Shown here piece after piece: positions 4,667-62,819 of a stretch of DNA of 64,000 nt (the stretch's first letter is position 1; each line of letters opens with the position of its first letter). The position numbers and the translations under genes were made by a program. The notes under the pieces are model-generated. The model saw nothing but the letters and a program-made list of their open reading frames with translations. It was not told the DNA's origin and did not search any database. The DNA comes from Chiridota heheva (Eukaryota; Echinodermata; Holothuroidea; Apodida; Chiridotidae). Location of the stretch: assembly GCA_020152595.1 (NCBI GenBank), contig JAIGNY010001849.1, forward strand, positions 597,501 to 661,500. Reading direction: 5' to 3'.

Positions 4667-6620
4667 AATTAACATGACATGACGGGCTAAAAAGGGTGAG
4701 TCACCCCATAAAAAGTCCAAACGAATACCACCACCACCACAAACAATCAAAGACACCCAGAGTTACTGTAGTAAAGAACATAAATATCAATGTTGGACTT
4801 TGAAATTGTGAACAGAATTTGAGCTAACCACCAACTCAGGCAAACCATTCCACTCATTAACAACTCTTTGCGAAAAGCTAGAATGCTAAATATCTATCTG
4901 TGAGAACTCTATGGTCAACTTAAAACTGTTACCACGTGTCACATGATTAGCTGAAATATGCAAGAAATAAAATATCAAGGCATCACTACCAGATAGAAAT
5001 TTAACCAGAACCAAAAGCTTTTGTGGTTCCGATGCTTTTCTCATATGCTGATTAATTTGCAAGTTTTGTATTAACTGTCAAGTAATTCCATGTCATGAAA
5101 TATTTGTTCCATATTTAAAAATAAGCCACACCCACCATGCAGATCAATAAAATAGAACCTGTTGACAACATTAGCATGTGCACAATAATTAACAACATTA
5201 TCATAGCAAGTATGATGCAAAAATGGTTGCTCATTTATCCTATTTCAAGAGTTTATCAGAAGCCCCGCCTACTCATTAATGTTCATGACATCACTACCAC
5301 AACATTAGAGCATATGTACAGACCATGACCCATGTATACAACATATGGCCTAAATCTGATATACTGTTCACGAGATACAGTTATGGTGCTTATATCGGTC
5401 AGCACTTTCACATTAAGATACGCCTGTACCATCGTATTAAAGATATCTTTTGATAACTAACACATGTACACAATAACCAACAATATCACCATGCCCAATA
5501 TGACGCAAAATAGACATACACTTGCTCATTCATCACTTTCTCAAAGTTTTCACTTAAGCCCCGCCCACTTATCAATATGCATTATATCACCACCAAGAAC
5601 AATAGGGCACATTTGCAGACCACGAGCTATCTGTGTACCATTACGTGAATCCAGTACATAATTTTTGAGATATCGTATTTACAAGCTTTTTGTTTACAAA
5701 ATCATATTAATCCCCGCCCACTATGCATATTAATGAGAGTCCAACACTTTTATAAAATGAACACATACACACCAGATAACGTCATTATTATAACATATAT
5801 GAAAACAAGAGACGCGTTGTTAAAATATGAACATTTCAAGATTTTAAAATTAAGCCCCGCCTACTTCATTAATATGCATGAAATCACCTTCAAAAACAAT
5901 AGGGGATAACTAAGGACCATGGGCTATCTGTGTACCACATATGACATGAATACACTTTACCATTCTTGAGATACCGTGTTTATGCTCTTTTTAGCAAAAT
6001 CATATTAAGCCTCGCCCACTATGCATATTAATAAAATTCAATGCTTTACATCACGAACAAGTACACACCAGAAAATATCATAATCCTACCAAATATGATG
6101 CAAAACAGACATATGGTTGTTAAAATATGAATATTTAAAGATTTTTACATTAACCCATACCAACTAATTAATATGCATGACATCACCGTCAAAAACAATA
6201 GGGACATCACCATTAAAAACAACACGGCACATCTACGAACCATGGGCTATCTGAGTACCACATATGACATGAATCCAGTGTATCCTTCTTGAGATACCAC
6301 GTTTACGAGCTGGCTGTCACATACATACGTACACCCTCACACACATACATACACACACACACACCATCATGACCACATAGGTTCCTGATGCTATCACATC
6401 GGAACCAAAAACTTGAATCATATCACCATGTACTGTACTCTTCTCAACTCAAGCATGGTCAAACCAAGAGTTTGCAATTTAAATTCATAAGAAAGATTCC
6501 TTACTTCGGGAATAAGTCTAGAGGCTCTTCGCTGATTATGCTCCAAAATGAACTCGTCCTTCTCATAAAAGGGACTCCAAGCCTGAATAGCATACTCAAG
6601 GTGAGGTCTGACTAACTGCT
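4667..6620 (-). mobile_element. CR1-like LINE 3' fragment, interrupted
   Basis: Segments 4677-5002 and 6411-6620 match, in order, 47456-47775 and 47781-47980 of the larger CR1-like LINE on the same strand. The 3' end begins at CCCGTCAT (reverse complement of 4677) followed by a short ATGTT-type tail. A satellite-type transposon (5003-6410) splits it, and R1 copy 2 abuts its upstream end. Coding capacity is lost. Confidence 0.8.
5003..6410 (+). mobile_element. TIR-bounded element with ~300-bp tandem units, copy A
   Basis: The left end has AACCAAAAGCTTTTGTGG followed by TTCCGATGC. The right end is GATGCTATCACATCGGAACC plus A-rich sequence, giving an imperfect ~16-bp terminal inverted repeat around TGGTTCCGATG. 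Inside are about four diverged units near 5124, 5417, 5711 and 6009, each led by a GCCCCGCCCACTATGCAT-like word. A short CACACATACATA tract precedes the right end. The empty site is preserved in a related LINE at 47770-47800. No coding sequence is seen, so it is presumably non-autonomous. Confidence 0.75.
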
Positions 6621-7185
6621 AATGGCCCCCATCTTTGTGAAGCACCTAGAATTTCAGCTCTGTCAAAAGCTTTTTATGTTTGTTTATTTTGTAATATTTT
6701 TTCTTTCTTGCAAATTTATTTGACTCATCAGAAAATATTTACATGTAAATGTACTGATTGTTACAATTTAAGTATTTTGACTGTTTGTTGGTCGATTTAA
6801 CAGCTTGTAAACAGGCCTTGACAGCGGGATTTTCCCTAGGCCTATTGTTAGTTTTACTGATTACTGCTGCACATTCGCGGTGCATGTCACAAGTTAGCCG
6901 ACTCAGATTTCGGCAAAATATCCCCATTTATAGGTGATTACTGCGCATTTGTGATTCTCACGTTTAAAAAGGATTATGCTAGGCCTAATTGGGTTTACAC
7001 TTTGTAAAAAGTCATTGAATGGAATTTTGTCAGCTGAAATGTGTGTGTGATTTGATTCATGAATGATCATATTGATTTTTAACGACAAGACTGACTATGA
7101 AAAAACGAATACTCCCAAAGAAGTGTTTAGCAAACGTTTACAAGGATTTGCGAGCGTGTAGCGTGTACACGCTAAATGGTCACAG
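6621..7185 (+). repeat. Dispersed repeat R1, copy 2
   Basis: The most complete same-strand R1 copy. It starts after the LINE text ACTGCTAA (6613-6620) and ends at CACAGCTCTAG, followed by ACTGCTTT. These two flanks resemble a mutated 8-bp TSD, and the LINE relative at 47975 reads ACTGCTTA. Near the 3' end is a perfect 14-bp palindrome AGCGTGTACACGCT. No ORF is conserved between copies. Confidence 0.75.
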
Positions 7186-7256
7186 CTCTAGACTGCTTTA
7201 AAAAGAGCTATATATATAAGTCTGACATACAAAATTATACGTTATAACTCATTCGA

Positions 7257-13128: not shown

Positions 13129-13985
13129 ATTCAAAACCATACAAAAAATGTTCCACAGGATGTCTCATGTAACATCACTCACCCAGCACTGTATTTGACC
13201 TAATTTGTCTTCAAATAGTAGCTGGAAATTCCCAGGAAAAACAGTACAACAGCATTCGCTAAAAGCTAATGATGGTACAGTACAGTACTGAAAAATGTGG
13301 TGTAATAAATTTCCATTTTTGCATGTATTAGTGTTTGGAATCAACTTTAATTATTTGAACAAAAGTATACAATTTAGAGGACATAAAGCTTACCATCCAG
13401 ACACAAAGTTCTAAAAGGTAATGGTAACTGGTAAGGTGCATGTCCAATATATAATTTTTTTGATAGGATGCCATGGTTTAAGTGCAAATTTACTTTGCAA
13501 TTATTTTTGAACTAAACATCTGCATGGTACTAGTGGTTTTTCTACTAGAAACCCCTAAAACTGAACCCCCAATCACTTACCACATTAAAGATCTGGACAC
13601 TTATATTTAGCAACATTTTAGCTGAACTGGACACTTATAATTAGCAACATTATAGCTTAACTAGACTTAAAAAAATATGCTATGTAAAACCACAACAAAA
13701 AATGCAATGTTCAAAAATCAAAAACAGTTAATACTTGGACATTTTACAGCAATTTAAATCAATAGGCTTCATTAAGATTCATGCAAATTTGTATGTAACT
13801 TTGTGACATTGGAAAGAGAAAAACTATGATTTTAATAATCTATGATTTTAATAATCTATGATGTCAATTTACTGTCTTCTTGGAAAGGCTAAACATACTA
13901 CTGTAGAACTTTAATCCATGCCACTAAATCAACTCATTTATTGTAAATTTTTATATTCAAAATGTTACTGAGAGCATGATTGATC
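13129..13985. other. No gene seen
   Basis: AT-rich. Two short duplicated phrases are present: GACACTTATA...TTAGCAACAT at 13596 and 13630, and CTATGATTTTAATAAT at 13826-13857. Nothing coding was recognised. Confidence 0.5.
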
Positions 13986-14440
13986 ATTGACCACTTTGAT
14001 CCATTGCCACTTTGTACCTTTGCCACTTTGATCCTTTGCCACTTTGATCCTTTACCACTTTGATCATTTGCCACTTTGATCCCTTTCCACTCTGATCCTT
14101 TGCCACTTGGATCCTTTATCACTTTGATCCTTTGCCACTTTGATCCTTTGCCACTTTGATCCTTTGCCACCATGGATCCTTTACCATTCTGATCCTCTAC
14201 CACTTTGATCCTTTGCCACTTTGATCCTTCACCACTTTGATCCTTTGCCCCTTTGGATCCTTTGCCACTTTGATCATTTACCACTTTGATCATTTATCAC
14301 TTTAATCCTTTACCACTTTTATCTTTTGCCACTTTGATCATTTACCACTTTGATCATTTATCACTTTGATCCTTTACCACTTTTATCTTTTGCCACTTTG
14401 ATCATTTACTGCTAAGGTCATTTACCATTTTTATCTATTT
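13986..14440. repeat. 16-bp minisatellite
   Basis: About 28 imperfect head-to-tail units of CCACTTTGATCCTTTG. Three units equal 16 codons, which produces a long spurious minus-strand frame of repeated GKGSKWQRIKV-like peptides. Divergence rises toward the right end. Confidence 0.9.
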
Positions 14441-16964: not shown

Positions 16965-18260
16965 CTATGTTATCATGTCAAGAATTGTACCTCAATTAGG
17001 GATGTTATCATGTCAATAATTGTACCTTCATTAGGGATGTTATTATGTCAAGAATTGTACTTTCATTAGGGATGTTCTCATGTCATGAATTGTACCTCAA
17101 TTAGGGATGTTATTATGTCAAAAATTGTACCTTCATTAGGGATGTTATCATGTCAAGAATTGTACCTCCATTAGGGATGTTATCATGTCAAGAATTGTAC
17201 CTCAATTAGGGATGTTATTATGTCAAGAATTGTACCTTCATTAGGGATCTTATCATGTCAAGAATTGTACCTCCATTAGGGATGTTATCATGTCAAGAAC
17301 TGTACCTTCATTAGGGATGTTATCATGTCAAGAATTGTACCTTCATTAGGGATGTTATCATGTCAAGAATTGTACCTTCATAAGGGATCTTATCATGTCA
17401 AGAATTGTACCTTTATTAGAGATGTTATCATGTCAAGAATTGTACCTTCATTAGGAATGTTATCATGTCAAGAATTGTACCTTCATTAGGAATGTTATCA
17501 TGTCAAGAATTGCACCTCCATTAGTGATGTTATTATGGCAAGAATGGTACCTCCATTAGGGATGTTATCATGTCGAGAATTGTATCTTCATTAGGGATGT
17601 TATCATGCCGAGAATTGTACCTCCATTAGGGATGTTATCATGTCGAGAATTGTACCTTCATTAGGGATCTTATCATGTCAAGAATTGCACCTACATTAGG
17701 ATGCTATCACGTCAAGAATTGTACCTTCATTAGGGATGTTATTATGTCAAGAATTGTACCTTCATTAAGGATGTTATCATGTGAAGAATTGTACCTTTAT
17801 TAGAGATGTTATCATGTCAAGAATTGTACCTCAATTAGGGATGTTACCATGTCAAGAATTGTACCTTCATTAGGAATGTTATCATGTCACAAATTGTACC
17901 TTCATTAGGGATGTTATTATGTCAAAAATTGTACGTCAATTAGGGATGTTATCTTGTCAAAAATTGTACCTCAATTAGGGATGTTATCATGTCAAAAATT
18001 GTACCTTTATTAGGGATGTTATCATGTCAAGAATTGTACCTCCATTTAGGATGTTATTATGTCAAGAATTGTACCTTTATTAGGAATATTATCATGTCAA
18101 GAATTGTACCTTCATTAGAGATGTTATCATGTCAAGAATTGTACCTTAATTAAGGATGTTATCATGTCAAAAATTGTACCTACATTAGGGATGTTATCAT
18201 GTCAAGAATTGTACCTTCATTAGGGATGTTATCATGTCAAGAATTGTACCTTTATTAGAA
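16965..18260. repeat. 35-bp minisatellite
   Basis: About 37 head-to-tail units containing GAATTGTACCTTCATTAGGG and ATGTTATCATGTCAA. Variation is mostly single-base, at the position after ACCT (TTC, TCC, TCA, TTT) and in GGG. There is no spacer between units, so it is not CRISPR-like. Confidence 0.95.
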
Positions 18261-19084
18261 ATCAACAAATCCTAGTCCCACTGCTTAAAACAATAATATA
18301 TTTCTACCTACATGCAGCCAAACTTTTTGGGAGGGTCTTGAAAACCCACTTTTGTGGTAGAATATTTGAAATGTGTTAAACTTCACTGATGAAAGGAGCA
18401 CTTGCCTGAAATGTGAGAGCCTTTTATCCTGGAGTCTCTAGAATATTTGAATATTTCCTTGCATGTGTTGGTACTGATAGTCTTTGATGTGAATTTTCAA
18501 ATCAACTGTAATTATTTCTAACAAAAACAGTATTTAATTGTCTCAATAACACAATATTAAAGTATGACCTCCGTTATTACAAAATTTCCATTTAGCAAAA
18601 ATAAGGGCCTCATTTTCAACTGCAAGCACTATGAATTATAATATGACAACATGAGTTTCTTCTCTGACAAACTTGAATACAGCCAGTGCAGCTCTCAGGG
18701 CCTGATGGATAAATGCAGCTTTCAGGGCCTGATAGATACATCCAACATGATGAATAACTCTGGCTATAAATTTTCAGTCCAATGCATCCAAACTCACCAG
18801 AGTGCACTCACTGATGAAAACATCCTTTTAAAAGTCCAAATGAATCCTCAGCCCCCATTACACGCATGACTTTGCCATGCAGTAACCAAATCCACAATAC
18901 CCAGCTCTTCACAATAGGTTCCATTGTGTGCATATAGATGATTAGGATTGTAATTTCTGATGCGTAAAATAACTGAACTATCTGTGGTGGGTTTTTAATT
19001 GCTTCTAGCAGAGTCTAAAAGTCATACCCGCCAAAATGGAGGTTCTTGCAGGTGAAAATTTGTAGCGAGGATTGGGAGTAATGA
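18261..19084. other. No gene; isolated units of the 32-bp minisatellite
   Basis: Two to three diverged units of the downstream 32-bp array lie at about 18671-18742 (CAGCTCTCAGGGCCTGATGG and a variant), about 340 bp before the main array starts. The rest shows nothing recognisable. Confidence 0.6.
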
Positions 19085-20690
19085 ATGCAGCTCTCAGGGC
19101 CTGATGGATACAGCCAGTGCAGCTCTCAGGGCCTGATGGATACAGCCAATGCAGCTCTCAGGGCCTGATGGATACAGCCAATGCAGCTCTCAGGGCCTGA
19201 TGGATACAGCCAATGCAGCTCTCATTGCCTGATGGATACAGCCAATGCAGCTCTCAGGGCCTGATGGATACAGCCAATGCAGCTCTCAGGGCCTGATGGA
19301 TACAGCCAATGCAGCTCTCAGGGCCTGATGGATACAGCCAATGCAGCTCTAAGGGCCTGATGGATACAGCCAATGCAGCTCTAAGGGCCTGATGGATACA
19401 GCCAATGCAGCTCTAAGGGCCTGATGGATACAGCCAATGCAGCCCTCTGGGCCTGATAGATACAGCCAATGCAGCTCTCGGGGCCTGATGGATACAGCCA
19501 ATGCAGCTCTCAGGGCCTGATAGATACAGCCAATGCAGCTCTAAGGGCCTGATGGATACAGCCAATGCAGCTCTCAGGGCCTGGTGGATACAGCCAATGC
19601 AGCTCTCAGGGCCTGATGGATACAGCCAGTGCAACTCTCAGGGCCTGATGGATACAGCCAATGCAGCTCTCAGGGCCTGATGGATACAGTTAATGCAGCT
19701 CTCAGGGCCTGATGGATACAGCCAATGCAGCTCTCAGGGCCTGATGGATACAGCCAATGCAGCTCTCAGGGCCTGATGGATACAGACAATGCAGCTCTTA
19801 GGGCCTGATGGCAGCTCCCAGGGCCTGAATGCAGCCAATGCAGGGCCTGATGGATACAGCCAATACAGCTCTCAGGGCCTGATGGATACAGCCAATGCAG
19901 CTCTCAGGGCCTGATGGATACAGCCAATGCAGCTCTTAGGGCCTGATGGATACAGCCAATGCAGCTCTCAGGGCCTGATGGATACAGCCAATGCAGCTCT
20001 CAGGGCCTGATGGATACAGCCAATGCAGCTCTCGGGCCTGATGGATACAGCCAATGCAGCTCTCAGGGCCTGATGGATACAGCCAATGCAGCTCTCAGGG
20101 CCTGATGGACGGCCAATGCAGCCTGATTGCCTGATGGATACAGCCAATGCAGCTCTCAGGGCCTGATGGATGCAGTTAATGCAGCTCTCAGGGCCTGATG
20201 GATACAGCCAATGCAGCTCTCAGGGCCTGATAGATACAGCCAATGCAGCTCTCAGGGCCTGATGGATACAGACAATGCAGCTCTCAGGGCCTGATGGATA
20301 CCGCCAATGCAGTTAATGCAGCAGCTCAGGGCCTGATGGATACAGCCAGTGCAAGCTCTCAGGGCCTGATGGATACAGCCAATGCAGCTCTCAGGGCCTA
20401 ATGGATATAGCCAATGCAGCTCTCAGGGCCTGATGGATCCAGCCAATGCAGCTCTCAGGGCCTGATGGATACAGCCAATGCAGCACTCAGGGCCTGATGG
20501 ATACAGCCAATGCAGCTCTAAGGGCCTGATGGATACAGACAATGCAGCTCTCAGGGCCTGATGGATACAGCCAATGCAGCTCTCAGGGCCTGATGGATAC
20601 AGACAATGCAGCTCTCAGGGCCTGATGGATACAGACAATGCAGCTCTCAGGGCCTGATGGATACAGCCAATGCAGCTCTAAGGGCCTGAT
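19085..20690. repeat. 32-bp minisatellite
   Basis: About 50 head-to-tail units built from GGGCCTGATGGATACAGCC then AATGCAGCTCTCA. The units are GC-richer than the flanks. Irregular short or fused units occur at 19801-19860, 20100-20130 and 20300-20345. Open frames inside it (for example 19413-19634 minus) come from the repeat. Confidence 0.95.
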
Positions 20691-21915: not shown

Positions 21916-23158
21916 TATATCCTCCATATGATATGTATCATATCATCCATATGATATGTATCATATCCTCCATATGATATGTATCATATCCTCCATATGA
22001 TATGCATCATATCCTCCATATGATATGCATCATATCCTCCATATGATATGTATCATATCCTCCATATGATATGTATCATATCCTCCATATGATATGTATC
22101 CTATCCTCCATATGATATGTATCATATCCTCCATATGATCTTATCATACCCTCCATATGATATGTATCATATCCTCCATATGATATGTATCATATCCTCC
22201 ATATGATATGCATCATATCCTCCATATGATATGCATCATATCCTCCATATGATATGTATCATATCCTCCATATGATATGTATCATATCCTCCATATGATA
22301 TGTATCATATCCTCCATATGATATGCATCATATCCTCCATATGATATGTATCATATCAACCATATGATATGTATCATATCCTCCATATGATATGTATCAT
22401 ATCCTCCATATGATAGGTATCATATCCTCCATATGATATGCATCATATCCTCCATATGATATGTACCATATCCTCCATATCATATGTATCATATCCTCCA
22501 TATGATATGCATCATATCCTCCATATGATATGTATCATATCCCCATATGATATGTATTATATCAACCATATGATATGTATCATATCCTCCATATGATATG
22601 TATCATATCCTCCATATGATATGTATCATATCCTCCATATGATATGTATCATATCAACCATATGATATGTATCATATCCTCCATATGATATGTATCATAT
22701 CCTTCATATGATATGCATCATATCCTCCATATGATATGTATCCTATCCTCCATATGATATGTATCATATCCTCCATATGATCTTATCATACCCTCCATAT
22801 GATATGTATCATATCCTCCATATGATATGTATCATATCCTCCATATGATATGTATCATATCCTCCATATAATATGTATCATATCCTCCATATGATATGTA
22901 TCATATCCTCCATATGATATGTATCATATCCTCCATATAATATGTATCATATCCTCCATATGATATGTATCATATCCTCCATATGATATGTATCATATCC
23001 TCCATGTGATATGTATCGCATCCTCCATATGATATGTATCATATTCTCCATATGATATGCATCATGTCCTCCATATGATATGCATCATATTCTCCATACG
23101 ATATCTATCATATCCTCCATATGATATGTATCATATCCTCCATATGAGATGTATTATA
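21916..23158. repeat. 23-bp minisatellite of perfect short palindromes
   Basis: About 54 units. Each unit contains ATATGATA TG TATCATAT, an 18-bp inverted repeat with 8-bp arms and a 2-base centre, followed by a CCTCC-type spacer. Variants change the centre (TG to CA-type) or spacer (CAACC). Both strands therefore look alike apart from the C-rich spacer. Confidence 0.95.
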
Positions 23159-24429
23159 TATCACATCTCAGGAATTAAATTGGGCTCACAAACATCACGT
23201 CTAATGGTTAATAGTCTTTCAACTATAGTAATTATAATATAATGATTTAGTGTAGTACATTACTCACGTTCCAGCTAGATCAGGGAGCTGGCTAGAGTAA
23301 GTGGCAAATCATTCAATTCCTTGAGTTAAGACATCAGTTAATGGTGACTAAGCACTGCAACTACTCTTTTCTTATTCCTGATGAATATACTGTAGCTTTT
23401 TTTGTCGTGGCCCTCAGGCGCGACAGGTCTAGTATTGTAAACTCCATGTTCAAACTCTGCCATCTTTTAATTAAGAACTATATTTCAAATTTTATCAAAT
23501 GAAGAGAATATTGACTTCAAATAAAGTGTTATTTATTGGAGGTTGTATTTTAATGGATACTATGCTACAATCAATCTCAGCAACGCTAATTATAGAAATT
23601 TATGACGTTGTTTTATTCGCAAAAGTCATGTAGATTGGCAATGTTGAGAAATGTTGACGAAAACTTCCGGTGCCAATCCTACATTTTAATAGCCAGGTCT
23701 AAAAAGTGATATAAAGAATGGTATTATTTAGACATTTTTACTGTTTCAAAACATAATAGAAAATATTTATTACACTCAAAATTTTTTTGAAGAGTCTCAA
23801 AGAGATAATGAAGGAGAATAATATTATTTGAAATTTAAAATGAACGAGGCTAGTCTCACCGGATGTAGTGAGAAAAACACCTCACTTGGTAACCTAAGGC
23901 ACTACATGCTAAGCAATACTTGCAGTGCTTGTATATGTAGTGGCTATAGAGGATATACGGTCAGAATGTTGACTATACTGGATGCAGTTCTGAAACTTAA
24001 AGAGCTAAGTTAACAGGTTAAGAAATTGTTAGCATCCATCACGTACACACTGTAATCTTGCAACCAGTCAAATTCAGCATGGGTAGAATTTATTTCAGAG
24101 AACCAAGTTGCAGATCTTCTTTATTTATTGTATCAATTCTATTTTATAATGAATAAATTAAAACCTACATAGCTTTGTTCTCTTTCTTTAAGGGTTGTGT
24201 CTAGCTTTCGTTTTTAATGGGGCTTAACCTCCCCCCCCCCCCCCCTCCCATCCTAAAATAACACTAAATGCCGTTTCCAGATTAGGGAGGACAGAGGTGT
24301 AGGAGTTAGGGCCCCAGGAAAGGGGTTCTATTTCCCAGTTGCATAAATGCTTTATTTTGATGAAAATGTAAAATTATTCAAGAAATATTCCTATTGTTTA
24401 AAAAAAAAAAATTATTGGGTACACAAATC
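23159..24429. other. No gene seen
   Basis: Contains a C-homopolymer run near 24231-24248 and an A-run near 24400. The open frame at 23828-24013 has no domain. No repeat family was recognised. Confidence 0.5.
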
Positions 24430-25365: not shown

Positions 25366-25880
25366 GCCATGTATGACTTGGTACACTTGTGTATCATGTA
25401 TGACTTGGTACACTTGTGTATCATGTATGACTTGGTACACTTGTGTATCATGTATGACTTGGTACACTTGTGTATCATGTATGACTTGGTACACTTGTGT
25501 ATCATGTATGACTTGGTACACTTGTGTATCATGTATGACTTGGTACACTTGTGTATCATGTATGACTTGGTACACTTGTGTATCATGTATGACTTGGTAC
25601 ACGTGTGTATCATGTATGACTTAGTACACTTGTGTATCATGTATGACTTGGTACATTTGTGTATCATGTATGACTTGGTACACTTGTGTATCATGTATGA
25701 CTTGCTACACTTGTGTATCATGTATGACTTGCTACACTTGTGTATCATGCATGACTTGCTACACTTGTGTATCATGTATGACTTGCTACACACGTGTATC
25801 ATGTATGACTTGCTACACTTGTGTATCATGTATGACTTGCTACACACGTGTATCATGTATGACTTGTTACACTTGTGTAT
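25366..25880. repeat. 27-bp minisatellite
   Basis: Nineteen head-to-tail units beginning ATGTATGACTTGGTACACTT and continuing GTGTATC. The left units are almost identical; from about 25700 a GGTACA to GCTACA variant dominates. The period is nine codons, so five of six frames stay open for hundreds of bases (up to 230 codons). These are not credible proteins. Confidence 0.95.
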
Positions 25881-26317
25881 GTTCTTATGTCAAGCAGGGC
25901 TGTAATTCCTGACAAGACAGGGGCACTATTTCCACTTTACAGCAGAATTCAAAAAAAGAATTATTTTGTGAAAAACACTGTCCCTAGTACTTTGTAGAGC
26001 AAGAATAATGCTCCATGTGACCCCCAACCCCTCCTTCCCCCACATAATGAAAAAGAGATACAGCCCAGGTATCAAGTGATTGCTTTGCAAATCTTCTGTT
26101 TATTTTAAGAGCAAACTCTGAAAAACCAGAACCAAAATAGTTTGTGGTTCTGATGCTTTTTTTTTCATATGCTGATTGATTTGCAAGTTTTGTATTACCT
26201 GTCATGCCATTGCCTATCAACACACTAGCTACAGTAACAATCACAATTATACCAAATATGAAATAAAACAATGTGATTGTTAAAATATAAGCAATTCAAG
26301 ATTTTCACATTAAGCCC

Positions 26318-26318
<1 letters not shown>

Positions 26319-26383
<65 letters not shown>

Positions 26384-27165
26384 ATACTAATAATAATAAT
26401 AATAATAATAATAATACATAAATTTATATAGTGCTAATTTTGTAAAAACATTCAAAAGTGCTTTACATACAAGCAAATTAGATACGAAAACAAAAATATA
26501 GAAATGACAACATAAATACAAATACAATGGATCAAGCTGCACATTAGATGAATGTCATTTTAAACAAAAAAAGTTTGAAGTTTAGTTTCAAAGGAGGTCA
26601 GGGATACATTATCAATACATTTGAGTTCAGTTGGGAGTGAATTCTACAACCAAGGACCTTTATAAGCAAAGGCTGTTTCGCCATTTGAGAGTTTTATGCT
26701 TAATACTGGGAACAAATAGGGACTTGAAACAAAAATCATAGCAGGATGGTTTTTCAACTACCATTTCACATAAATAATTGAAAGCAAGGCCTTTAATGCA
26801 CGTGAAAACAATTCAAAAAATAATTCTATGGTTTTGACTGGTAACCAGTGAAGGGACTTCAAACAGCATAAATGTGACAAAATGTTGGTAGTATGTAAAT
26901 CAACCAAGCACCATTAAGTATTCTTTGAATTCTGTAAAGTTGATAATCAGGTAGGCCAACAAGAATTACAATAATCAATGTGACTTATAACAAAACATTA
27001 ATAAGGGTTTTCATGAAATCTTCATCTAAATATTTGGCAATCTGACTAATGTTATAAAGACCATGATAAGCTTTGGAACAAACTTTCCCAATATGAATAT
27101 TCATAGACATGTGATTGTCCAAGTAAACATCCAAATTTTTTCTAACACTTTTTAACAAATCATGA
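26319..27165 (-). mobile_element. L2-like LINE 3' fragment with TAA/TAG tail
   Basis: The minus-strand LINE ends in a long ATT/AGT trinucleotide tail (26319-26416). The remaining coding DNA gives KSVRKNLDVYLDNHMSMNIH, KAYHGLYNISQIAKYLDED, and degraded HWLPV-like text near 26840. It lies between two parts of one tandem unit, so it inserted into copy B. It is 5'-truncated and non-functional. Confidence 0.8.
26985..27165 (-). pseudogene. LINE reverse transcriptase fragment
   Basis: A short remnant of the RT thumb region on the minus strand, containing VRKNLDVYLDNHMSMNIH followed by SKAYHGLYNISQIAKYLD. This is the region just after the catalytic palm in L2-like elements, where an RNLGVxLD motif is normal. 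The apparent start methionine lies in the flanking tandem unit, not in the LINE. Downstream frames are interrupted. Confidence 0.75.
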
Positions 27166-27792
27166 ATTTCAATATTTTCGTACCATGAACATGTACACAC
27201 TAGCTAACATCATAATTATACCAAATATGAAACAAAACAGACATGCAGTTATTACAATATGAGCATTTCAAGATTTTTACATTAAGTCCCGCCTACTCAT
27301 TAATATGCATGATGTTGCCACCAAAAACAATAGGGCACATCAGCAGACAATGGGATATCTGTGTACCACATATGGACTGAATCCCATGTACAGTATTGTT
27401 CTTAAAATACTGTGTTTACAAGCTCTTTTTAACAAAATCATCTTAAGACCCGCCCATTATTAAACATATTAATGAAATCCAACATTTTGGTACCATGAAC
27501 ATGTACACACTAGCTAACAACATAATTGTACTAAATTTGAAACAATCAGTCATGTGGTTGTTAAAATATGAGCATTCTATGATTTTATCATTAAGCCCCG
27601 CCTACTCATTAATATGCATGATCTCGCCACCAAAAACAACATGGCACATTTGTGGACCATGGGCTAACTGAATCCCATATATCATTCTTAAGATACTGTG
27701 TTTACAAGCTCTTTTCAGCAAAATCACATTAAGCCCTGCCCACTATGCATGTTAATGAAATCTTTTACAATATAAACATGTACACACTAGTA

Positions 27793-28372
27793 GAGCTGTG
27801 ACCGTTTAGCGTGTACTCGCTACACGCTCGCAAATCTTGTAAACGTTTACTAAATACTTCATTGCGAGTAATCGTTTTTCATACATTATAGGCCTAGTGT
27901 CTTGCTGTTGAAAATCAATACTCATGATTCAAATCACACACACATTCGGCTGACAAAATTCCAATCAATGATTTTTTACAACTGTAAACCCGATTAGCAT
28001 AATCTTTTTTACATATGCGAATCACAAATCGCGGTAATCACCAATGAATGGGGATATTATGCACTTTAATTTCACGAAAACTGAGTAATCTAACTTGTAA
28101 AATGCACCGCGAATGTGCAGCAGTAAACAGTGAAACTAACAATAGGCCTAACGTTAGGCCATAAGGCTTTAAATCCCACGCAATCAAGGCCCGTTTCATC
28201 GACCAACAAACACCTGAATCGTGACAATCAGTACATTTACATGTAAATATTACCTAATGAGTCAAATAAATTTTGCAAGAAAGAAAAAATATTGCATAAT
28301 AAATAAACAGAAAAAGGTTTTAACAAAGCTGAAATTCTGCATGCTTCGCAAAGAAGCGGCCATTTTTCGAGA
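27793..28372 (-). repeat. Dispersed repeat R1, copy 3
   Basis: Reverse complement of copies 1 and 2, from TAGAGCTGTGACCG at the left to GCGGCCATT at the right. It lies in the tandem array of copy B. CACACTAG occurs immediately left (27785-27792) and again at 28790-28797, after a further ~360 bp of unassigned sequence and a duplicated ~60-bp piece of host unit. Confidence 0.75.
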
Positions 28373-28733
28373 GGACTAATATTTCAGAACTTCCTGGTGG
28401 TGGTGGCGTAGTTTTGAAATGTTTTGCGAGGTATATCATAGGCCTCAGTATGTAAGATTTTCACAGAACTTTGAAAGCCGAGCGAATAGGACAAACAAGT
28501 TCTGCGATGTTGAGTTTAAATGACATTGAAAGAAAGTTATCTGTTCTATCTAAACTGAATTTCCATGCATATTTTCCATAAAAATGATGATTTGTACTGT
28601 AGAAGTAAACTTTTTGAATTTGAAAGCATAACTCAGCGTCTATTTGGGCAATGCAGCCAGTACTTTTGCCATACTAGTTCGCGATTTTTATTCTGTAGTT
28701 TTGGATCAATTTTCGTGTATTTTTGAAAAATCA
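28373..28733. other. Unassigned sequence between R1 copy 3 and the tandem unit
   Basis: No match to other parts of the window was recognised. It may be the remainder of a longer R1 element or a separate insertion. Confidence 0.4.
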
Positions 28734-29090
28734 CTAAAGCCGTGCCCACTATGCTTTTTTAATGAAATCTTTTACAATATAAACAGCTCTACACACTAGC
28801 TAACATCATAAGTATACCAGATATGAAACAAAACATACATGCAGTTGTTAAAATATTAACATTTCCAGATTTTAACATTAGCCCACCTACTCATTAATAT
28901 GCATAACATCACCATCAAAAACAATAGGGCACATCTAAGGACCATGGGCTATCTGTGTGCCCCAAATGACATTAATCCGGTGTATCGTTCTTGAGATATC
29001 GTATTTACGAGCTTGGCGTCACACACACACATACATACCACATGCCATCATGACTGCATAAGTTCCTGATGCTATCGCATTGGAACCAAA

Positions 29091-29705: not shown

Positions 29706-30213
29706 TGTACAACATCAATTGGAAATCAGTACAAGATCTAGTGAAGATCAGTACAACATCTATTGGAGATCAGAACAACATCTATAGGAGACCAGTACAA
29801 CATCTATTCAGTACAGATCAGATACAACTGCATCTATTGAGATCAGTACAACATCTATTGGAGATCAGTACAACATCTATTGGAGATCAGTACAACTATT
29901 GGAGATCAGTACAACATCTATTGGAGATCAGTACAACATCTATTGGAGATCAGTACAACATCTATTAGAGATCAGTACAACATTTATTGGAGATCAGTAC
30001 AACATCTATTGGAGATCAGTACAACATCTATTGGAGATCAGTAAATCTATTGGAGATCCCTACAACATCTATTGGAGATCAGTACAACATCTATTGGAGA
30101 TCAGTACAACATCTATTAGAGATCAGTACAACATCTATTGGATATCAGTACTGCATCTATTGGAGATCAGTACAACATCTATTAGAGATCAGTACAACAT
30201 CTATTAAAGATCA
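29706..30213. repeat. 22-bp minisatellite
   Basis: About 22 units of GATCAGTACAACATCTATTG plus GA. Several units are shortened (for example near 29890 and 30045). Open frames of repeated ISTTSIGDQYNIY-like peptides come from the array. Confidence 0.93.
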
Positions 30214-30904
30214 GGAAAACAGCAGCAAGTCCCAGTCAAGAACAGAACATCTCATTTAACTTTTTTATACTTTTCAGACCTTATTAAACAAGCAAACTCA
30301 TCACGTAATTCTTAATTGCATGCTAAACAAAAGACTCTAACCAACAGTTGAAAAAATATCCAAATGAAGTCATTTCCAAATGAAGTCATATGTTAGTCTT
30401 TGATGGCGGTACAAAACTGTTTTTCACATGAAAACAGTAGTTCTCCTTGTTTGCTCTTCTCCTTGATGATGTTGCAGTATCAAAAAGCAAATATTTTAAT
30501 CAAAGGCATACCAGTGTTCACATTAGTGAGGAGGAAAGAGGGATTCCCCCTATTGTATTGGAATTCTCCCTTGAAAAAAATACAAAAATTACAAAGGAAG
30601 GAATTTGCTATTAGGACATGACATTTATACCTTGGCACAGATTAGTTGCTCAAACCAATAATTTCTCCTCAAATTTTAATTCCTAGTGTGAACAGTAGGG
30701 CTTACTATTTCATTCCATGATATGAGAGAAATGGAAATTAAGAGGAAAAGAAGGACAAAACTTTCTTTTCATACTCTGGGAGGGGGACCAAGTACATCAC
30801 TTGAAACTTATCCTATGAATTTTATCTATCAAAAAGCTGTTGCTTTTCAAACTCAAATATTGAGAACGATTCATTGCACACTCTTCTCAACAGAAAAAAA
30901 ATTT
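30214..30904. other. No gene seen
   Basis: Short frames at 30400-30621 and 30722-31000 have no domain. No repeat was recognised. Confidence 0.5.
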
Positions 30905-31830
30905 CTTGTAAATGTATATATAGTGGTTGTAGAGCTGCAGCAAAAAACGGTTGTAGGGCTCACTGATACAGTGGTTTTTCAAACTCAAATAGTGGTTTAG
31001 AGCTGCAACAATTACAGTAAATGTAAATACACGGTTGTAGGGCTGCAGCACCCAATGTACTGTAAATGTATATATAGTGGTTGTAGGGCTACAGCACCCA
31101 ATGCACTGCAAATGAATATACAAGGGCTCAATGTAATATAAATGTATATACAGTGGTTTTCAAATGTACTGTAAATGTATATACAGTGCTTGTAAGGCTG
31201 CAGCACCCAATGTACTGTAAATGTATATACAGTGGTTGTGGACTGCAGCACCCAATGTACTGTAAATGTATATACAGTGGTTGTAGGGCTGCAGCACCTA
31301 ATGTACTGTAAATGTATATACAGTGGTTGTAAAGGCTGCAGCACCTAATGTACTGTAAATGTATATACAGTGGTTGTAGAGCTGCAGCATCTAATGTACT
31401 GTAAATGTACATACAGTGGTTGTAGGGCTGCAGCATCTAATGTACTGTAAATGTACATACAGTGGTTGTAGGGCTGCAGCATCTAATGTACTGTAAATGT
31501 ATATACAGTGGTTGTAGGGCTGCAGCACCTAATGTACTGTAAATGGATATACAGTGGTTGTAGGGCTGCAGCACCTAATGTACTGTAAATGTATATGCAG
31601 TGATTGTAGAGCTGCAGCACCTAATGTACTGTAAATGTATATACAGTGGTTGTAAAGCTGCAGCACTCAATGTACTTTAAATGTATATGCATTGGTTGTA
31701 GGGCTACAGCATCTAATGTACTATAAATGTATATACAGTGCTTGTAGGGCTGCAGCACCCAATGTACTGTAAATGTATATACAGTGGTTGTAGGACTTCA
31801 GCACCTAATGTACTTTAAATGTATATAGGA
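30905..31830. repeat. 46-bp minisatellite
   Basis: About 17 good units from 31013, preceded by degenerate ones. Each contains TGTACTGTAAATGTATATAC, AGTGGTTGTAGGGCTGCAGC and ACCTAA. Units vary in the last six bases and by small indels. Confidence 0.93.
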
Positions 31831-34668: not shown

Positions 34669-35660
34669 AACCAGAACCAAAAGATTTTGCTTTTTTTTCA
34701 TGCTGATTAATTTTGTATTAATTGTTATGTCATTGCATATCATAAAATATTTGACATGACATGAATTGTTCTTGAGATATCGTGTTTACAAGCTCTTTTC
34801 AGTTAAATCATATTAAGCCCCGCCCACTGTGCATATTTATAAAATTCAATGTTTTTGTTTTTATATAAAAATAAACACGTACAAACTAGCTAACATCATA
34901 ATTCTACAAAATGTGAAACAAAACAGACATGTGATTGTTAAAACATGAGCATTTAAAGATTTTTACATTAAACCCCACCTACTCATTAATATGCATGACA
35001 TCACCACCAAAAACAATAGGGCACATCTACAGACTGGGTTACCTGTGTACAGCACATAACGTGAATCCAGTTATCCTTTTTGAGATATATCATGTTTACA
35101 AGGTCTTTTTAGCAAAGCCTTATTAAGCCCTGCCTACTATGCATATTAATGAAATTCAATGGTTTTATACAATGAACACACAACACACTAGCTAACAACA
35201 TAACTATACTAAATATGAAACAAATCAGACAAGTGATTGTTAAATTATAATTATTTCAAGATTTCCACATTAAGCCCCACCTACTCTTTAATATGCAAGA
35301 CACCACCACCAAAAAAAATAGGGCACTTTTACAGATCATGATGGGTTATCTGTGTACCAAAACTGATATGAATCGAGTTTACCGTTCATGAGATACCGTG
35401 CTTACAAGCTCTTTTCAACAAAATCATGTTAAGCTCCGCCCACTATGCATATTAATGAAATTCAACATTTTTGTACCATGAACATGTAATGTACATACTA
35501 GCTAACAACATAACTACTCCAGATATGATACACAGCACACATGCAGTTATAAAAATATGAGCATTTCAAGATATTTACATTAAACCCCACCCACTCATTA
35601 ATATGCATGACATAAACACCAAAAACAATAGGGCACATTTACGGACCATGGGCTATCTGC

Positions 35661-35893
35661 AGATCCCCAACTTTGCAGTTTTACAGGGGTGGCCCACCCT
35701 GCCCCTCCGTGGGCATGCCCCGCCCCTCCTAGGTTTGCCCCACTGCCTGGGGGTCGGCCCCGCCCTCTGGGGGTCCGCCCTGCCTCTTAGAAAAATGTGT
35801 ACATTTTTTGTATTTTTTTATATAGACTTAATTGTTGTTTTTTTTAATTCTCAAACTTAATTAACCTCATAAATGAAATACATGTACAGTACC
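35661..35893. other. C-rich unassigned insert left of the piggyBac-like element
   Basis: The stretch 35690-35790 is strikingly GC-rich, with repeated CCCCGCCC and CTGGGGGTC words in an AT-rich setting. The origin is unknown. An open frame across it (35603-35860) is not credible because it starts in the tandem unit. Confidence 0.5.
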
Positions 35894-36476
35894 TTAACCC
35901 TTACTCTTCCAGCGTCACGGTGACCGTGACAGTTACGATCCATTTTCCAAAAATAAATTTGAGTACCTTCCCAAAATCCTATAGAGCTGCAAATGAGTTC
36001 ATTCAAACCAGATTGAATAAATCTTTCATAATATGGTTATTTTGTTGGGGGGTTAGATTGAAATTTTTTGAGTAAAATCGTTACAAAAAAGTGCATTTTA
36101 AAAAAAAAACGGCCTTTTTCTTTTTTTTTTGGAAAGACGAATGTCATACGTGAATATTTTTTCAATTTTTTTTTTCTTCAGGTAAGGTATAAAGATAGTT
36201 TGAATTGTTGGTTGCTACACGATTTTTACTTGTACTTGGTCAATGTTTGTGTTTTTTTGGAGAAAATATGCCAAAATTTGTGATTTCGGGCCATTTTGGA
36301 CCTTTTTTGATCAAAAAATTATAAAAAAAGGCCCAAGAGGAGAAATAGATCGTTCAGACGATTTATTACAATAACAGATGCACCCCCTCTACATGCCTAA
36401 AAGGTCTCTGATGATGACGTCATTTTGCGTCTTTTTTTCTTCTTTTTTTTTTCCTCGCACATTCGACATCACAAAA

Positions 36477-36665
36477 TGGCGAGATACAAGTTACAACGTC
36501 GAACGTGCCTTCCGACTCCTATGTTTTCTTCAGAATAATGATGACTCAGAGGGGTCGGAAGGTACTTCTGATGAAGAAGATGTACCAGAACTCGACCAGA
36601 TTGAGGAAGAGGAGAATATAGAGCCTGCTGAGATGGATAGTGATCTGTTCCATATTACGGAGTTG
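36477..36665 (+). CDS. Acidic N-terminal-like exon within the piggyBac-like element
   Basis: An open stretch reads YNVERAFRLLCFLQNN and then a run rich in Asp, Glu and Ser (SEGTSDEEDVPELDQIEEEE). It ends in frame at TTG followed by a consensus GTGAGT splice donor (36666-36671). Acidic N-termini that begin with a short helix of this kind are usual in piggyBac-family transposases. This is inference from style, not from a domain match. An ATG with a good context at 36476-36478 lies one frame off, so either a single-base indel separates it from this frame or the true start is elsewhere. No DDD catalytic core follows in the element. Confidence 0.45.
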
Positions 36666-37300
36666 GTGAGTGTTTTCTTCCAAAAATAGCGAAAGTACTA
36701 CATTGTAAATGTGTAGTAATAAAATAAGGCTTGTAGAATTATAATGATAAATTAGTGGGGATTTTTTGCTTGTTACGAGAAACAAGTAAAAGGGACACTA
36801 AAATCACATATAAAAAAAAGGATTTAGGTCCTTTCTATAATAGCCCGGATGAAACAAATGAAAGCTGAACCCCAATAATAACATTTCTAAATGGACTGAA
36901 ATATATGTATTTCCCAATGGCAAAATTGTAAATTTAAGCCTACTGAAATGTGTATTTCCAATTTCACAAAATCCAAGTTCCATTATTTCAGGGGCCGAAA
37001 TCACAATTTTATGGGGGAAAGTGGAGTAGGGGTCCCATGTTAGGGCAAAATACACATGTTGGAGGTGCCCCAGGCCCATTTAGAGGAAAATGCTTGTATA
37101 TAGGCCTAGTACCGGTACATTATTTTGATGCCCCATTTTTTGGGACCATGATCCTTTTCCCCTCCTCCTGGCTATGCCACTGTTGTGGTGATGAATAGAT
37201 CGATAAAACAAACATTTTGGACCCCTGTATGTACCCCCGGGCTTCCCGGCTGTAAAAGTCTGTCCCCACGGTTACCACAAAATTGTGGGGCAGGTTAGAA

Positions 37301-37440
37301 ACCACAATAACATGTTATGCGATAACATGTTATGCGTATGCTTGAAGAGGACGAGCCGCCTGCTACTAGAAACCACAATAAGATGTTGTGCGATAACATG
37401 TTATGCGTATGCTTGAAGAGGATGAGCCGCCCGCTACTCC
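37301..37440 (+). repeat. Two-copy tandem duplication (~70 bp) before GC-rich exon
   Basis: GAAACCACAATAA...ATGTTATGCGTATGCTTGAAG followed by AGGA-GAGCCGCC-GCTACT occurs twice in direct repeat. The second copy runs into the open exon while the first is cut by a TAG. Confidence 0.8.
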
Positions 37441-37729
37441 CCAACCCAAGAGGAAGAGGGACAGACCGTTGAAGATGAGCCCAGGCCCCTCTTCCAGGCC
37501 TTCCGCTGCAGTCTCGCCACCATCACCACTCAAAGAAAATCCGACTGCAGCGGAAAAAGCTGCCTTCAAAACCAGGGAGGAAGAGCGGAATGCTCGGCTG
37601 CAGGAGATACAACGGTCGAAGGTCATCCCTGCAGCCGATAAAGACTATCATCTGTGGGAAGTACTGGTGGAGAGTGACCGGGATCGACACGTGGTCTTCG
37701 GTAACTGCTTATGGGAAGACCAAACTAAA
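37397..37729 (+). CDS. GC-rich Pro/Ser/Lys-rich exon of unknown function in the piggyBac-like element
   Basis: About 109 codons are open, much richer in G+C than the DNA around them. From the methionine at 37403 the protein begins EEDEPPATPQ and continues with a basic PKRKRDR cluster that could be a nuclear localisation signal. Next comes a Pro/Ser-rich linker, then a charged helix (AAFKTREEERNARLQEIQ), then KDYHLWEVLVESDRDRHVVF. It ends in frame at AAA followed by the donor GTAAGT (37730-37735). I do not recognise the family. Together with the next exon it could be a transposon-specific accessory protein or a captured host exon. The acceptor on its left side was not identified. Confidence 0.5.
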
Positions 37730-37786
37730 GTAAGTTGAATGAATATAGTTGCAATTATTTTTTTATTTTTTTTATTCTATTTGCAG

Positions 37787-37846
37787 CAACAAGGTATAGC
37801 AGAAGACTTTACAAATTTGGACCTTTTCGGCAAACATTTCTTATGA
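37787..37846 (+). CDS. Possible terminal exon following the GC-rich exon
   Basis: A pyrimidine-rich tract ends in TTTGCAG (37780-37786). Joining phase 0 to phase 0 from the donor at 37730 gives QQGIAEDFTNLDLFGKHFL and a TGA stop at 37844-37846. The agreement of donor, acceptor and phase with a prompt stop supports a real small last exon. A second donor-like GTAAGT near 37869 allows an alternative reading. No family was recognised. Confidence 0.4.
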   Translation, partial: QQGIAEDFTNLDLFGKHFL

Positions 37847-38918
37847 ATTCCATGTGGAATGAACAGAAGTAAGTGTTCAATAGATAATTAGCATAGTCTA
37901 TCAACATAAAAGTAGCTGTGAAGCTTGTAATGGCTGAAATTGGGTCAGAAATAAACAAAAAAACACTTTTGTGCATAATAAATGAGGTAAATGACCTAAT
38001 TTGCATATCATTTGCATAATTTCTTATTTTATTTTTTGCAAATGATGATGTAAACATCTTGTTTTTCTGCATTCTATTAGTTTTGGACATCATAGAAGGA
38101 GAAAATGCATTTTTTGGAAAATTTAGTGCCATACACTATTAGATAGATTATTCACAGAATCGGGGATAATTTTAGGTCAAAATGTACCAAATTTTTCATA
38201 TTTGCGTCATTTTTTTTCTTCTGATTCCTAAAAATCCATGAATAGTATCAAATGAAAGGTCTTTCCAAGGACGATTCACAAATTCTATCCATATTTTTTT
38301 GCTATTTAGCCACAAGGCACAAGCGTGTCATAAAGATAGAATGTTTGGAGACCTAATATGCTAATTTAATGACCTAATTTGCATATTTGAGTTCGGAAAT
38401 ATGCACACTTTAGAAAGTTCAACATGTTAGCTTTCATAAAAGTCGAACTTGTTTTGGTACAAATGGAACAGAAAGTGCTGAAAAAATCCTCTTTCCAAAA
38501 ATTTCTGAAATAGCTTATTTGATTTTTGGAACCTTGGGAGAGTAAGGGTTAAATACAGAACACAGAATGATAGCATAGTAAGCAATCATCCTGTTTGGCT
38601 AATGACTGGTCCTTATCAATCAGAATAGATAAAATCAAAGAGCTTCTACACCAGGCACTTAAGCCTTGAGGGGGCCCCTAAGCTCCATGCCAAAAAGACA
38701 CAACGCTTATTTGCCCCTCAACAAGTCTCTTTTTTCAAGTCTGATCTGTGGGTCTGATCTGTGTACCATACAGTATATGACATGAATCCGGTGTATGGTT
38801 CTTGAGATATCGTGCTCACGAGCTTGTTGTTAGAGACACACATACATACACATATACATACATCCACACATCAGCATGACTGCATAGGTTCCTTATGCTA
38901 TTAGCATCGGAACTAAAA

Positions 38919-47442: not shown

Positions 47443-47464
47443 CATAACATAACAAGATGACGGG

Positions 47465-48548
47465 CTAAGAAGGGTGAGTCACCCCATAAAAAGCCCAAAC
47501 TAACACCACCACCACATAAAAAATAAAAAATAAAAGATGCCTAGAGTTAGTAAAGAACTTATCAATGTTGACTTTGAAATTGTGAACAGAAATGGAGCTA
47601 ACTACCCACTCAGGCAAACCATTCCACTCATTAACAACTCTTTGCAAAAGCTAAAACGCTGAATATCTATCCGTGAGAACTCTTTGGTCAACTTCAAACT
47701 AATACCATGTGTCACATGAGGATTAGCTGAAACATGCAAGAAATTACAGGAAGTCAAAGCATCACTACCAGATAGGATTTAAAAACTTAAATCATATCGC
47801 CACCTACTCTTCTTAACTCAACGTGGTCAAACCAAGAATTCACAACCTAGATTCATTACTTTGGAAATAAATCTAGTGGCTCTTTGCTGAACCTGCTTCA
47901 AAATAAACTTATCCTTCTCATTAAAGGTACTGTACTCCAAGCCTGAATAGCATACTCAAGGTGAGGCCTGACTTACTGCTTATACAAATTAAGAACAACC
48001 TCTCTACCAAGAAGCAAAAATTTCTTCTAATCAAACCAAGCATCCTATTTGCCCTTACAGCTGCTAAAGCACACTGTTTAAAAGGCTTCAGATTGCTAGT
48101 AATGACAACACCTGTGTTCCCTTTCTTGATCAACACAACCAAGATTTAAACCATTCATGCAGTAATCAAAAGCCAAATTGTTCTGACCAAAAGAAAGAAC
48201 TTTGCATTTATCAACATTGCATGACATCTGCCACGTTTGGGAACAAGAGACCAACTTATCCAGATCAGTTTGCAACAGTGAAGAATCCCTAGCATCATCA
48301 ACAATCCTGTACAGCTTACTGTCATCAGCAAATATACAAATCCTGGAGCCAAGGGAATTATCTATATCATTAATAAAGATTAAAAAAAGAAGCGGACCCA
48401 ATACAGAACCCTGAGGAACACCACTTGTAAACTTCTTCCATGAAGATACTTCACCATTAACAAAAACTCTTTGTGACCTGTCAATCAACCAAGAATATAT
48501 GCAACTGGCACACTTTCCCTCCACACCAAGCACTCTTGTTTTTATCAT
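47465..48548 (-). pseudogene. CR1-like reverse transcriptase, broken
   Basis: The open piece 48548-48096 carries SWLIDRSQRVFVNG, then SGVPQGSVLGPLLFLIFIND, then the catalytic FADD in CIFADDSKLY, then TWQMSCNVDKCKVLSFG. After a frameshift the stretch 48142-47921 has ALAAVRANRMLGLIRRNF. The C-terminal block 47647-47465 has RVVNEWNGLPEWVV and VNIDKFF. The order and motifs are those of CR1-type RT. Stops and shifts between the pieces show decay. Sequence between 48549 and 49367 is the degraded RT N-terminal region. Confidence 0.85.
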
Positions 48549-53880: not shown

Positions 53881-54580
53881 TAGCCGAGAACACCGTTTAT
53901 AGCCGAGAAGACCGTTTATGGCCGAGAACACCGTTCATAGCCGAGAACACCGTTCATAGCCGAGAACACCGTTCATAGCCGAGAACACCGTTCATAGCCA
54001 AGAACAACGTTCATAGCCAAGAACACCATTCATAGCCGAGAACACCGTTCATAGCCGAGAAGACCGTTCATAGCCGAGAAGACCGTTCATCGCCGAGAAC
54101 ACCATTCATAGCCGAGAACACCGTTCATAGCCGAGAACACCGTTTATAGCCGAGAACACCGTTCATAGCCGAGAACACCGTTTATAGCCAAGAACACCGT
54201 TCATAGCCGAGAACACCATTCATAGCCGAGAACACCGTAGCTGAGAACACCGTTCATAGCCGAGAACACCGTTCATAGCCGAGAACACTGTTCATAGCCG
54301 AGAACACCGTTCATAGCCAAGAACACCGTTCATAGCCGAGAACACCGTTCATAGCTGAAAACACCGTTCATAGCCGAGAACACCGTTCATAGCCGAGAAC
54401 GCCGTTCATAGCCGAGAACACCATTCATAGCCGAGAACACCATTTATAGCTAAGAACACCGTTCATAGCCGAGAAGACCGTTCATAGCCGAGAACACCGT
54501 TCATAGCCGAGAAAGCTGTTCATAGCCGAGAACACCGTTTATAGCCAAGAACATCGTTCATAGCCAAGAAGACCGTTCAT
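53832..54580. repeat. 19-bp minisatellite derived from LINE-A RT codons
   Basis: About 39 units of GCCGAGAACACCGTTCATA, with AAGAACA and GTTTATA variants. The edge units (CATAGCCAAGAACATCGTT, near 53843) are exactly the reverse complement of the LINE-A codons for NDVLGYE. LINE-A coding text continues on both sides of the array. The period is not a multiple of three, so it destroys the frame. Confidence 0.93.

Positions 54581-57721: not shown

Positions 57722-58694
<973 letters not shown>

Positions 58695-62050: not shown

Positions 62051-62819
<769 letters not shown>

Follow-up and report, generated by a model that had tools for sequence, protein, structure and literature searches.

HINE elements follow a plan that comprises subterminal inverted repeats (subTIRs), a complementary or palindromic repeat and a 3' palindrome, frequently together with a microsatellite and central repeats (PMC4067079, PMC7492417). 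The same papers describe insertion into T-rich sequence, flanked on either side by two or more Ts and, in the cases that they present, free of target duplication. DINE-1 shares this plan, as well as the same doubt over a TT duplication (PMC2374699). Helentrons and Helitrons that carry satellite repeats have been reported in oysters, other bivalves and Drosophila (PMC7492417, PMC2374699, PMC4067079), and the paper on the Tsp transposons of sea urchin is cited for DINE-1-like elements there (Cohen et al. 1985, as cited in PMC4067079).

The family that we report here, from Chiridota heheva, resembles several of these systems. Cg_HINE of the Pacific oyster, as described in PMC7492417, has a subTIR of 11-12 bp with a complementary inverted repeat 1-12 bp away, a microsatellite in the left module, a satDNA-like array mostly of at most five units in fixed orientation, a palindrome after the 3' subTIR, insertion into T-rich DNA that leaves no TSD and, in that account, no related partner. 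These traits have a counterpart in our family, where the one empty site read shows no duplication beyond Ts; however, the Cg_HINE units measure 140-180 bp as compared to ~300 bp here (the two being set apart by description), the oyster microsatellite consists mostly of 4-base motifs such as GTCY rather than CA/GT-rich sequence, and its palindrome comes after the 3' subTIR, whereas in our family the subTIR overlaps the hairpin. DINE-1/INE-1 of Drosophila, according to PMC2374699 and PMC4067079, is alike in its 13-bp subTIRs, the partial complementary inverted repeat by the 5' subTIR, the microsatellite, the species-specific central repeats of ~50-500 bp, the 3' stem-loop and the TT preference; the subTIR sequences listed there differ from ours, and the stem-loop lies a few bases past the 3' subTIR instead of overlapping it. 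HINE-Mo of a predatory mite resembles our family in that its subTIRs are palindromic at both ends, a palindrome lies near the 3' end, some copies contain tandem repeats and no fewer than two Ts flank either side; its target is described as unmodified, and the one empty site read here shows no duplication beyond Ts. Its 3' subTIR and palindrome lie 38-60 bp and 8-35 bp from the end, respectively, as compared to 20 bp and 0 in our family (PMC4067079). Finally, the pearl elements of bivalves, as PMC7492417 presents them, have up to six central repeats in short arrays within a HINE-like frame; compared by description, their units are of ~160 bp and ours of ~300 bp.

Results

The window, by which we mean the whole stretch of 64,000 nucleotides of contig JAIGNY010001849.1 that was analysed, contains three copies of the element (A, B and C). 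The original prediction had noticed them by their shared ends, tandem units and CA-rich tract. A blastn self-comparison of the window confirmed that both ends and the ~300-bp tandem units are common to the three copies. The proposed bounds (5003-6410, 26126-29090 and 34669-38918) had to be trimmed by a few bases, the cores being 5005-6406, 26126-29087 and 34671-38914. The parts of the three copies are as follows.

5005-6406, minus strand: copy A, HINE-like, complete, 1402 bp (blastn, end motifs, unit profile, empty site)
6396-6406, minus strand: copy A, 5' subTIR (GGTTCCGATGT on the minus strand)
6380-6391, minus strand: copy A, internal complement of the 5' subTIR, with hairpin potential (predicted fold -14.1 kcal/mol, RNA parameters)
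6317-6364, unstranded: copy A, CA/GT-rich microsatellite tract of the 5' module (TRF)
5116-6307, unstranded: copy A, tandem array of ~4 units of ~300 bp
5025-5035, minus strand: copy A, 3' subTIR (GCATCGGAACC on the minus strand)
5004-5033, minus strand: copy A, hairpin at the 3' terminus, sharing bases with the 3' subTIR (fold predicted with RNA parameters at -11.3 kcal/mol)
26126-29087, minus strand: copy B, broken by two other insertions
29061-29087, minus strand: copy B, 5' subTIR and complementary repeat, hairpin
27145-29009, unstranded: copy B, tandem array, interrupted by the hAT-like insert at 27791-28791
26220-26325: copy B, further partial unit
26124-26156, minus strand: copy B, 3' subTIR and terminal hairpin
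34671-38914, minus strand: copy C, 3' subTIR deleted, 3-kb insert inside
38887-38914, minus strand: copy C, 5' subTIR and complementary repeat, loop variant TAATA
34754-35661, last part 38756-38819, unstranded: copy C, tandem array

Copies B and C both contain nested insertions, and the left-hand repeat (the 3' subTIR) has been lost from copy C. No closed ORF of at least 120 aa was found in copies A, B or C.

The insert at 27791-28791 in copy B is 1001 bp long, has the ends TAGAGCTGT/ACAGCTCTA and an 8-bp duplication, CACACTAG, and we take it to be hAT-like. Its right part repeats the HINE unit sequence that adjoins its left end from outside, which looks like gap repair templated on the neighbouring unit. 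A relative of this insert lies beside the LINE flank of copy A (6621-7190), and another stretch is found at 56-410. At 26318-27144, the first partial unit of copy B is interrupted by (CTA)n/(TAA)n and by ~0.8 kb of non-unit sequence, after which the array restarts out of phase; part of the array seems to have been lost. The larger insert in copy C (~35662-38755) encloses a further element at 35894-38552, presumably piggyBac-like, with TTAA on both sides, 10-bp ends (CCCTTACTCT) and short broken reading frames. The window as a whole is rich in mini- and microsatellites, with up to ~383 AT copies (TRF):

13980-14409, 16967-18258, 19084-20690, 21917-23159 and 25368-25880: mini-/microsatellites
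29707-30221, 31163-31827, 53838-54580, 57773-58204 and 62053-62819: mini-/microsatellites

The ends were examined through an 11-base motif, GGTTCCGATGC/GCATCGGAACC, which with at most one mismatch occurs at five places in the window, every one of them at an element end; 100 windows resampled with a first-order Markov model gave a mean of 0.29 occurrences and a maximum of 2. The copies had been called TIR-bounded, a description that does not hold, given that the repeats are subterminal and join local hairpins. In copy A, the left repeat begins 20 bp inside the element and the right-hand one is present twice, as a hairpin (6380-6406). On the minus strand, the 5' part runs TTTTT, GGTTCCGATGC (5' subTIR), GATA, GCATCaGGAACC (complementary repeat) and a GT-rich microsatellite; then come an array of ~3 to 5 units of ~300 bp and GCATCGGAACC (3' subTIR), overlapping a terminal hairpin that closes with TTTTGGTTCTGG and is followed by TT. 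The two ends are thus asymmetric, with the subTIR, complementary repeat and microsatellite at one and the terminal hairpin at the other. The 3' subTIR lies 20 bp from the element end, and the hairpin reaches the very 3' end.

The 5' end thus consists of TTTTT, GGTTCCGATG(C/T), a loop of four or five bases and the complementary GCATC.GGAACC, the spacer between subTIR and complementary repeat being GATA or TAATA. The 3' end reads GCATCGGAACCACAAAA..TTTTGGTTCTGG with TT after it, and CTGG was the 3' end in 25 of 29 cases. The end pair of the family is TTTTTGGTTCCGATGC ... TTTTGGTTCTGGTT. The subTIR pair, when single changes are allowed, was seen in copies A and B and across the genome copies. With RNA energy parameters, the predicted folds of the 5' hairpin were -14.1 (A), -10.9 (B) and -9.9 (C), and those of the 3' hairpin -11.3 (A) and -11.8 kcal/mol (B), as compared to -3.0 in the degraded hairpin of copy C.

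The genome assembly (1.10 Gb, 3,744 contigs) was then searched. The 27-base 5' hairpin, with at most two mismatches, was found at 3,310 sites (1,596 + 1,714), and the reversed control gave 0. The ends did not turn out to lack conservation across copies, the first outcome named as contrary to the original prediction. Copy A as a query returned 13,701 first-look candidates, a figure which is not a copy number; the best 40, once scored, gave 56 matches on dispersed contigs. From these 40 candidates, all found with copy A, 20 genome copies were chosen, mainly by length. In 14 of them the 5' end could be located (it was missed in L011, L015, L019, L024, L025 and L026), and in 18 the 3' end was visible (it was not seen in L017 and L027 and was out of place in L011 and L023). 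Divergence from their consensus was 7-12% for nine copies of comparable length, with copy A at 8.0%. The element is therefore a very abundant family, dispersed through the 1.1-Gb genome. In L019 and L021, ~340 bp of 3' flank past the element end are alike at 76%; possible causes are duplication, read-through beyond the 3' terminus, or the insertion of both copies into the same repeat.

Junctions were scanned in 33 sequences (the 20 genome copies, nine loci from a search with units, the three window copies and L047, which contains two copies), and ends were matched in 23 cases at the 5' side and 29 at the 3' side. In the 5' flank, T occupied positions -5 to -1 in 96, 91, 87, 100 and 96% of the ends and position -6 in 35%; in the 3' flank it occupied +1 and +2 in 100 and 86% and +3 in 38%. 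The values at -6 and +3, about a third, are near the 32% of the window. Five Ts preceded the subTIR in 17 of the 23 5' ends. In the 14 two-ended copies the longest direct repeats at the junctions measured 0-4 nt, consisting of Ts only in 13 copies and being absent in one.

Copy A interrupts a LINE, of which the window contains a second copy with the site unoccupied:

47445-47960, unstranded: LINE paralogue in which the site is unoccupied, junction at ~47782

The LINE flanks of copy A meet at ~47782 in this paralogue, where no longer duplication is present, and a reverse transcriptase domain adjoins the empty site (48096-48548, minus strand). There are five Ts in the empty target, as compared to five in front of copy A and two behind it in the occupied site, so that two Ts were gained; they may be the element's own or a 2-bp TT duplication, one empty site having been read. 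The empty site had been presented as a dated one. The unoccupied paralogous site near 47782 does exist, but it does not date copy A, because the two LINE copies are diverged paralogues (83-87% identical to the left of the insertion site and 74-77% to the right). From these sequences it sets only an upper limit on age: copy A inserted after the LINE copies split. The proposal of a mobile family that has conserved ends, internal tandem units, a CA-rich tract and an empty site is upheld.

As regards the tandem units, TRF reported a 310-bp array in copy C, and a profile begun from the units of C counted ~3.95 units in A, ~3.47 in B (a figure that includes the stretch repeated inside the nested insert) and ~3.17 in C. 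The 20 genome copies had 3.7-4.9 units each. Among the three window copies, identity between units was 0.744 within copies (12 pairs) and the same between copies, 0.742 (33 pairs); in B and C, the six more complete units resemble only the two microsatellite-side units of A. The comparison of units within and between copies that the original prediction called for was decided by 91 units from 21 copies, all of the subfamily of copy A, to which the result applies since the sample was found with that copy. Across copies, units that occupy the same slot were 0.841 identical (861 pairs), whereas units in different slots were 0.701 identical both within one copy (154 pairs) and across copies (3,080 pairs). 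In the unit tree, slots 1 and 2, the 3'-most, formed one clade each (support 100/100 and 100/99, the bootstrap of the tree not having fully settled), while slots 3 to 5 were nearer one another and intermixed, and the extra units appear to have arisen among them. The phase of the array at the microsatellite side is nearly fixed. Slots conserved across copies imply that the array is copied as a block, without satellite-like homogenisation; these alignments indicate that it arose a single time, in an ancestor of the subfamily, and was then moved whole, units being gained or lost to some extent afterwards. The opposite pattern would be expected of a satellite that homogenises in place. Concerted evolution of the units was considered and rejected, considering that within-copy and between-copy identity are equal in the window and that slots dominate in the genome copies.

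A search with two units of copy C, containing no ends, led to 10 loci cut from 40 scored candidates, one of them being the window itself. The 3' end was present in nine of the nine non-self loci, and the 5' end too in six of them (partial in L055). In the best 40 candidates scored, the longest contiguous run of unit matches was ~1.2 kb; long arrays without the ends, which had been named as an outcome contrary to the prediction, were not seen there. The motif ATTAAGCCCCGCCYACT occurs twice per 300-bp unit, ~146 bp apart, with a similarity that spans only 35 bp; the unit may be an old dimer, a reading that we considered from this pair. The unit motif had no match in viral contigs.

Sequences with similarity to the Pfam Rep-like domain PF14214 were found at 11 places in the genome, 10 of which have internal stops. 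Around these 11 places, where ~10 kb of flank were read for each (8 kb for one), no autonomous element with the family ends was identified. Only L047 has family ends on both sides of a Rep fragment. Here, the stop-free Rep fragment lies on the opposite strand between two complete HINE copies, which share the same orientation, are ~5.7 kb apart and have their own ends and units each; we read the Rep fragment and the copies as neighbours rather than one element. In L045, a related 5' end is located 4.6 kb from the Rep fragment, at the edge of the stretch read. The nine other Rep-like loci gave no paired family ends, and L042 contained a single lone subTIR-like match. The Rep/helicase elements of L040 and L042 are 79% alike across 5.8 kb, and their common sequence starts with a different palindrome, present twice (GATTCACTTTTGTGAATGCC), which is perhaps the end of another Helitron-like family. 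Among 20 ORF pieces from five of the 11 loci, the domains detected were PIF1 helicase (L040, L049) and DUF6570 (L040); an endonuclease domain, the hallmark of Helentrons, was not found in these pieces. The oyster study was likewise unable to relate its HINEs to autonomous Helentrons (PMC7492417).

Discussion

These results indicate that the copies very probably belong to a HINE family; on this reading their ends are of the Helentron type and, being non-autonomous, they would depend on a Rep/helicase of the Helitron/Helentron class acting in trans. They have the subTIRs of ~11-15 bp, the 5' complementary repeat, the microsatellite, the central tandem repeats and the 3' palindrome; they insert at T-rich or TT sites that have two or more Ts on either flank, and they are non-coding. 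The presence of Helitron-type Rep and PIF1 helicase fragments in the genome also speaks for this assignment. They deviate in that the 3' hairpin overlaps the subTIR and runs to the element end. This deviation and the arrangement at L047 make us hold the assignment slightly less firmly than we otherwise would. Other observations that speak against it are that the 3' end CTGG also fits the CTRR of canonical Helitrons, that the spacing of the 3' subTIR is unlike that of the mite HINEs, that no autonomous element with these ends was identified around the 11 Rep-like places and that the 20 ORF pieces contained no endonuclease domain. As the literature suggests, a Rep/helicase of this class would act in trans on the copies, which, from the literature and their structure, would spread by rolling-circle replication and insert into T-runs, with the 3' hairpin presumably serving as the terminator. 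On this account, duplication of the units took place in an ancestral element, a unit was in some cases gained afterwards towards the 5' side, and the whole array was subsequently copied as one block.

A family of cut-and-paste MITEs, whose inverted repeats are short and which duplicate 2 bp of target (TT/AA) on insertion, would explain the AA at both flanks of all three window copies and is compatible with the empty site, where a 2-bp duplication is one possible reading; DINE-1, too, was at one time taken for a cut-and-paste MITE (PMC2374699). Such a family is nevertheless very unlikely, as the inverted repeats are not terminal and the two ends are asymmetric, the T preference extends over five positions on the 5' side as compared to two on the 3' side instead of forming a symmetrical duplication, and the junction repeats are Ts, 0-4 nt long, rather than a target duplication of fixed length. 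We consider it equally improbable that the elements are non-autonomous derivatives of the canonical Helitron type rather than of the Helentron type. The CTGG in 25 of 29 3' ends, with T as the next base in all 29, fits this possibility, as do the Rep and PIF1 fragments in the genome, none of which, among those scanned, has an endonuclease. However, the 5' TC is absent, five Ts standing before the subTIR in 17 of 23 ends; insertion is not between A and T, since T and not A precedes the 5' end in 22 of 23; the hairpin is at the very 3' end and not ~11 bp inside, as would be expected; and the succession of subTIR, complementary repeat and microsatellite is that of DINE-1/HINE elements.

The original prediction had gone further and proposed a candidate undescribed superfamily of DNA elements. 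That no coding partner was identified is in keeping with this, but the structural parts match the published HINE/DINE-1 plan, and the idea, dropped when the minus-strand reading was found to fit that plan, now has hardly any probability left. The comparison with pearl and Helitron-like elements made in the same place did point to the right kind. An ordinary satellite, with arrays found by chance near similar flanks, is just as implausible: it would account for the ~300-bp tandem units, yet units searched for without the ends are still inside the element (3' end in nine of nine loci), the copies examined have short arrays, and within a copy the units have not become homogeneous. A satellite without ends was dropped after the unit-only search. 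As for the suggestion that the element is a satellite-spreading vehicle, it does spread short arrays, whereas the within-copy homogenisation of a satellite is not seen.

A different view of the HINE array, which we regard as rather doubtful, is that it is a structural part of the transposon and not a satellite passenger, its units being specialised by position. If this were true, array length and order might be kept by selection on transposition, for instance through spacing or the context of the terminator, and the usual view of Helentrons as satellite spreaders would be turned round.

The HINE/DINE-1 kind is already known, and apart from the distinct slots the family is an ordinary member of this documented class. 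Searches of the literature by words found no description of this sequence family, which may itself be unnamed. What it adds is a very abundant HINE-type family with distinct unit slots, in which the gain and loss of units can be traced in individual copies. A single genome could thus serve to test whether satellites are made by rolling-circle elements or whether these elements simply transport fixed arrays.
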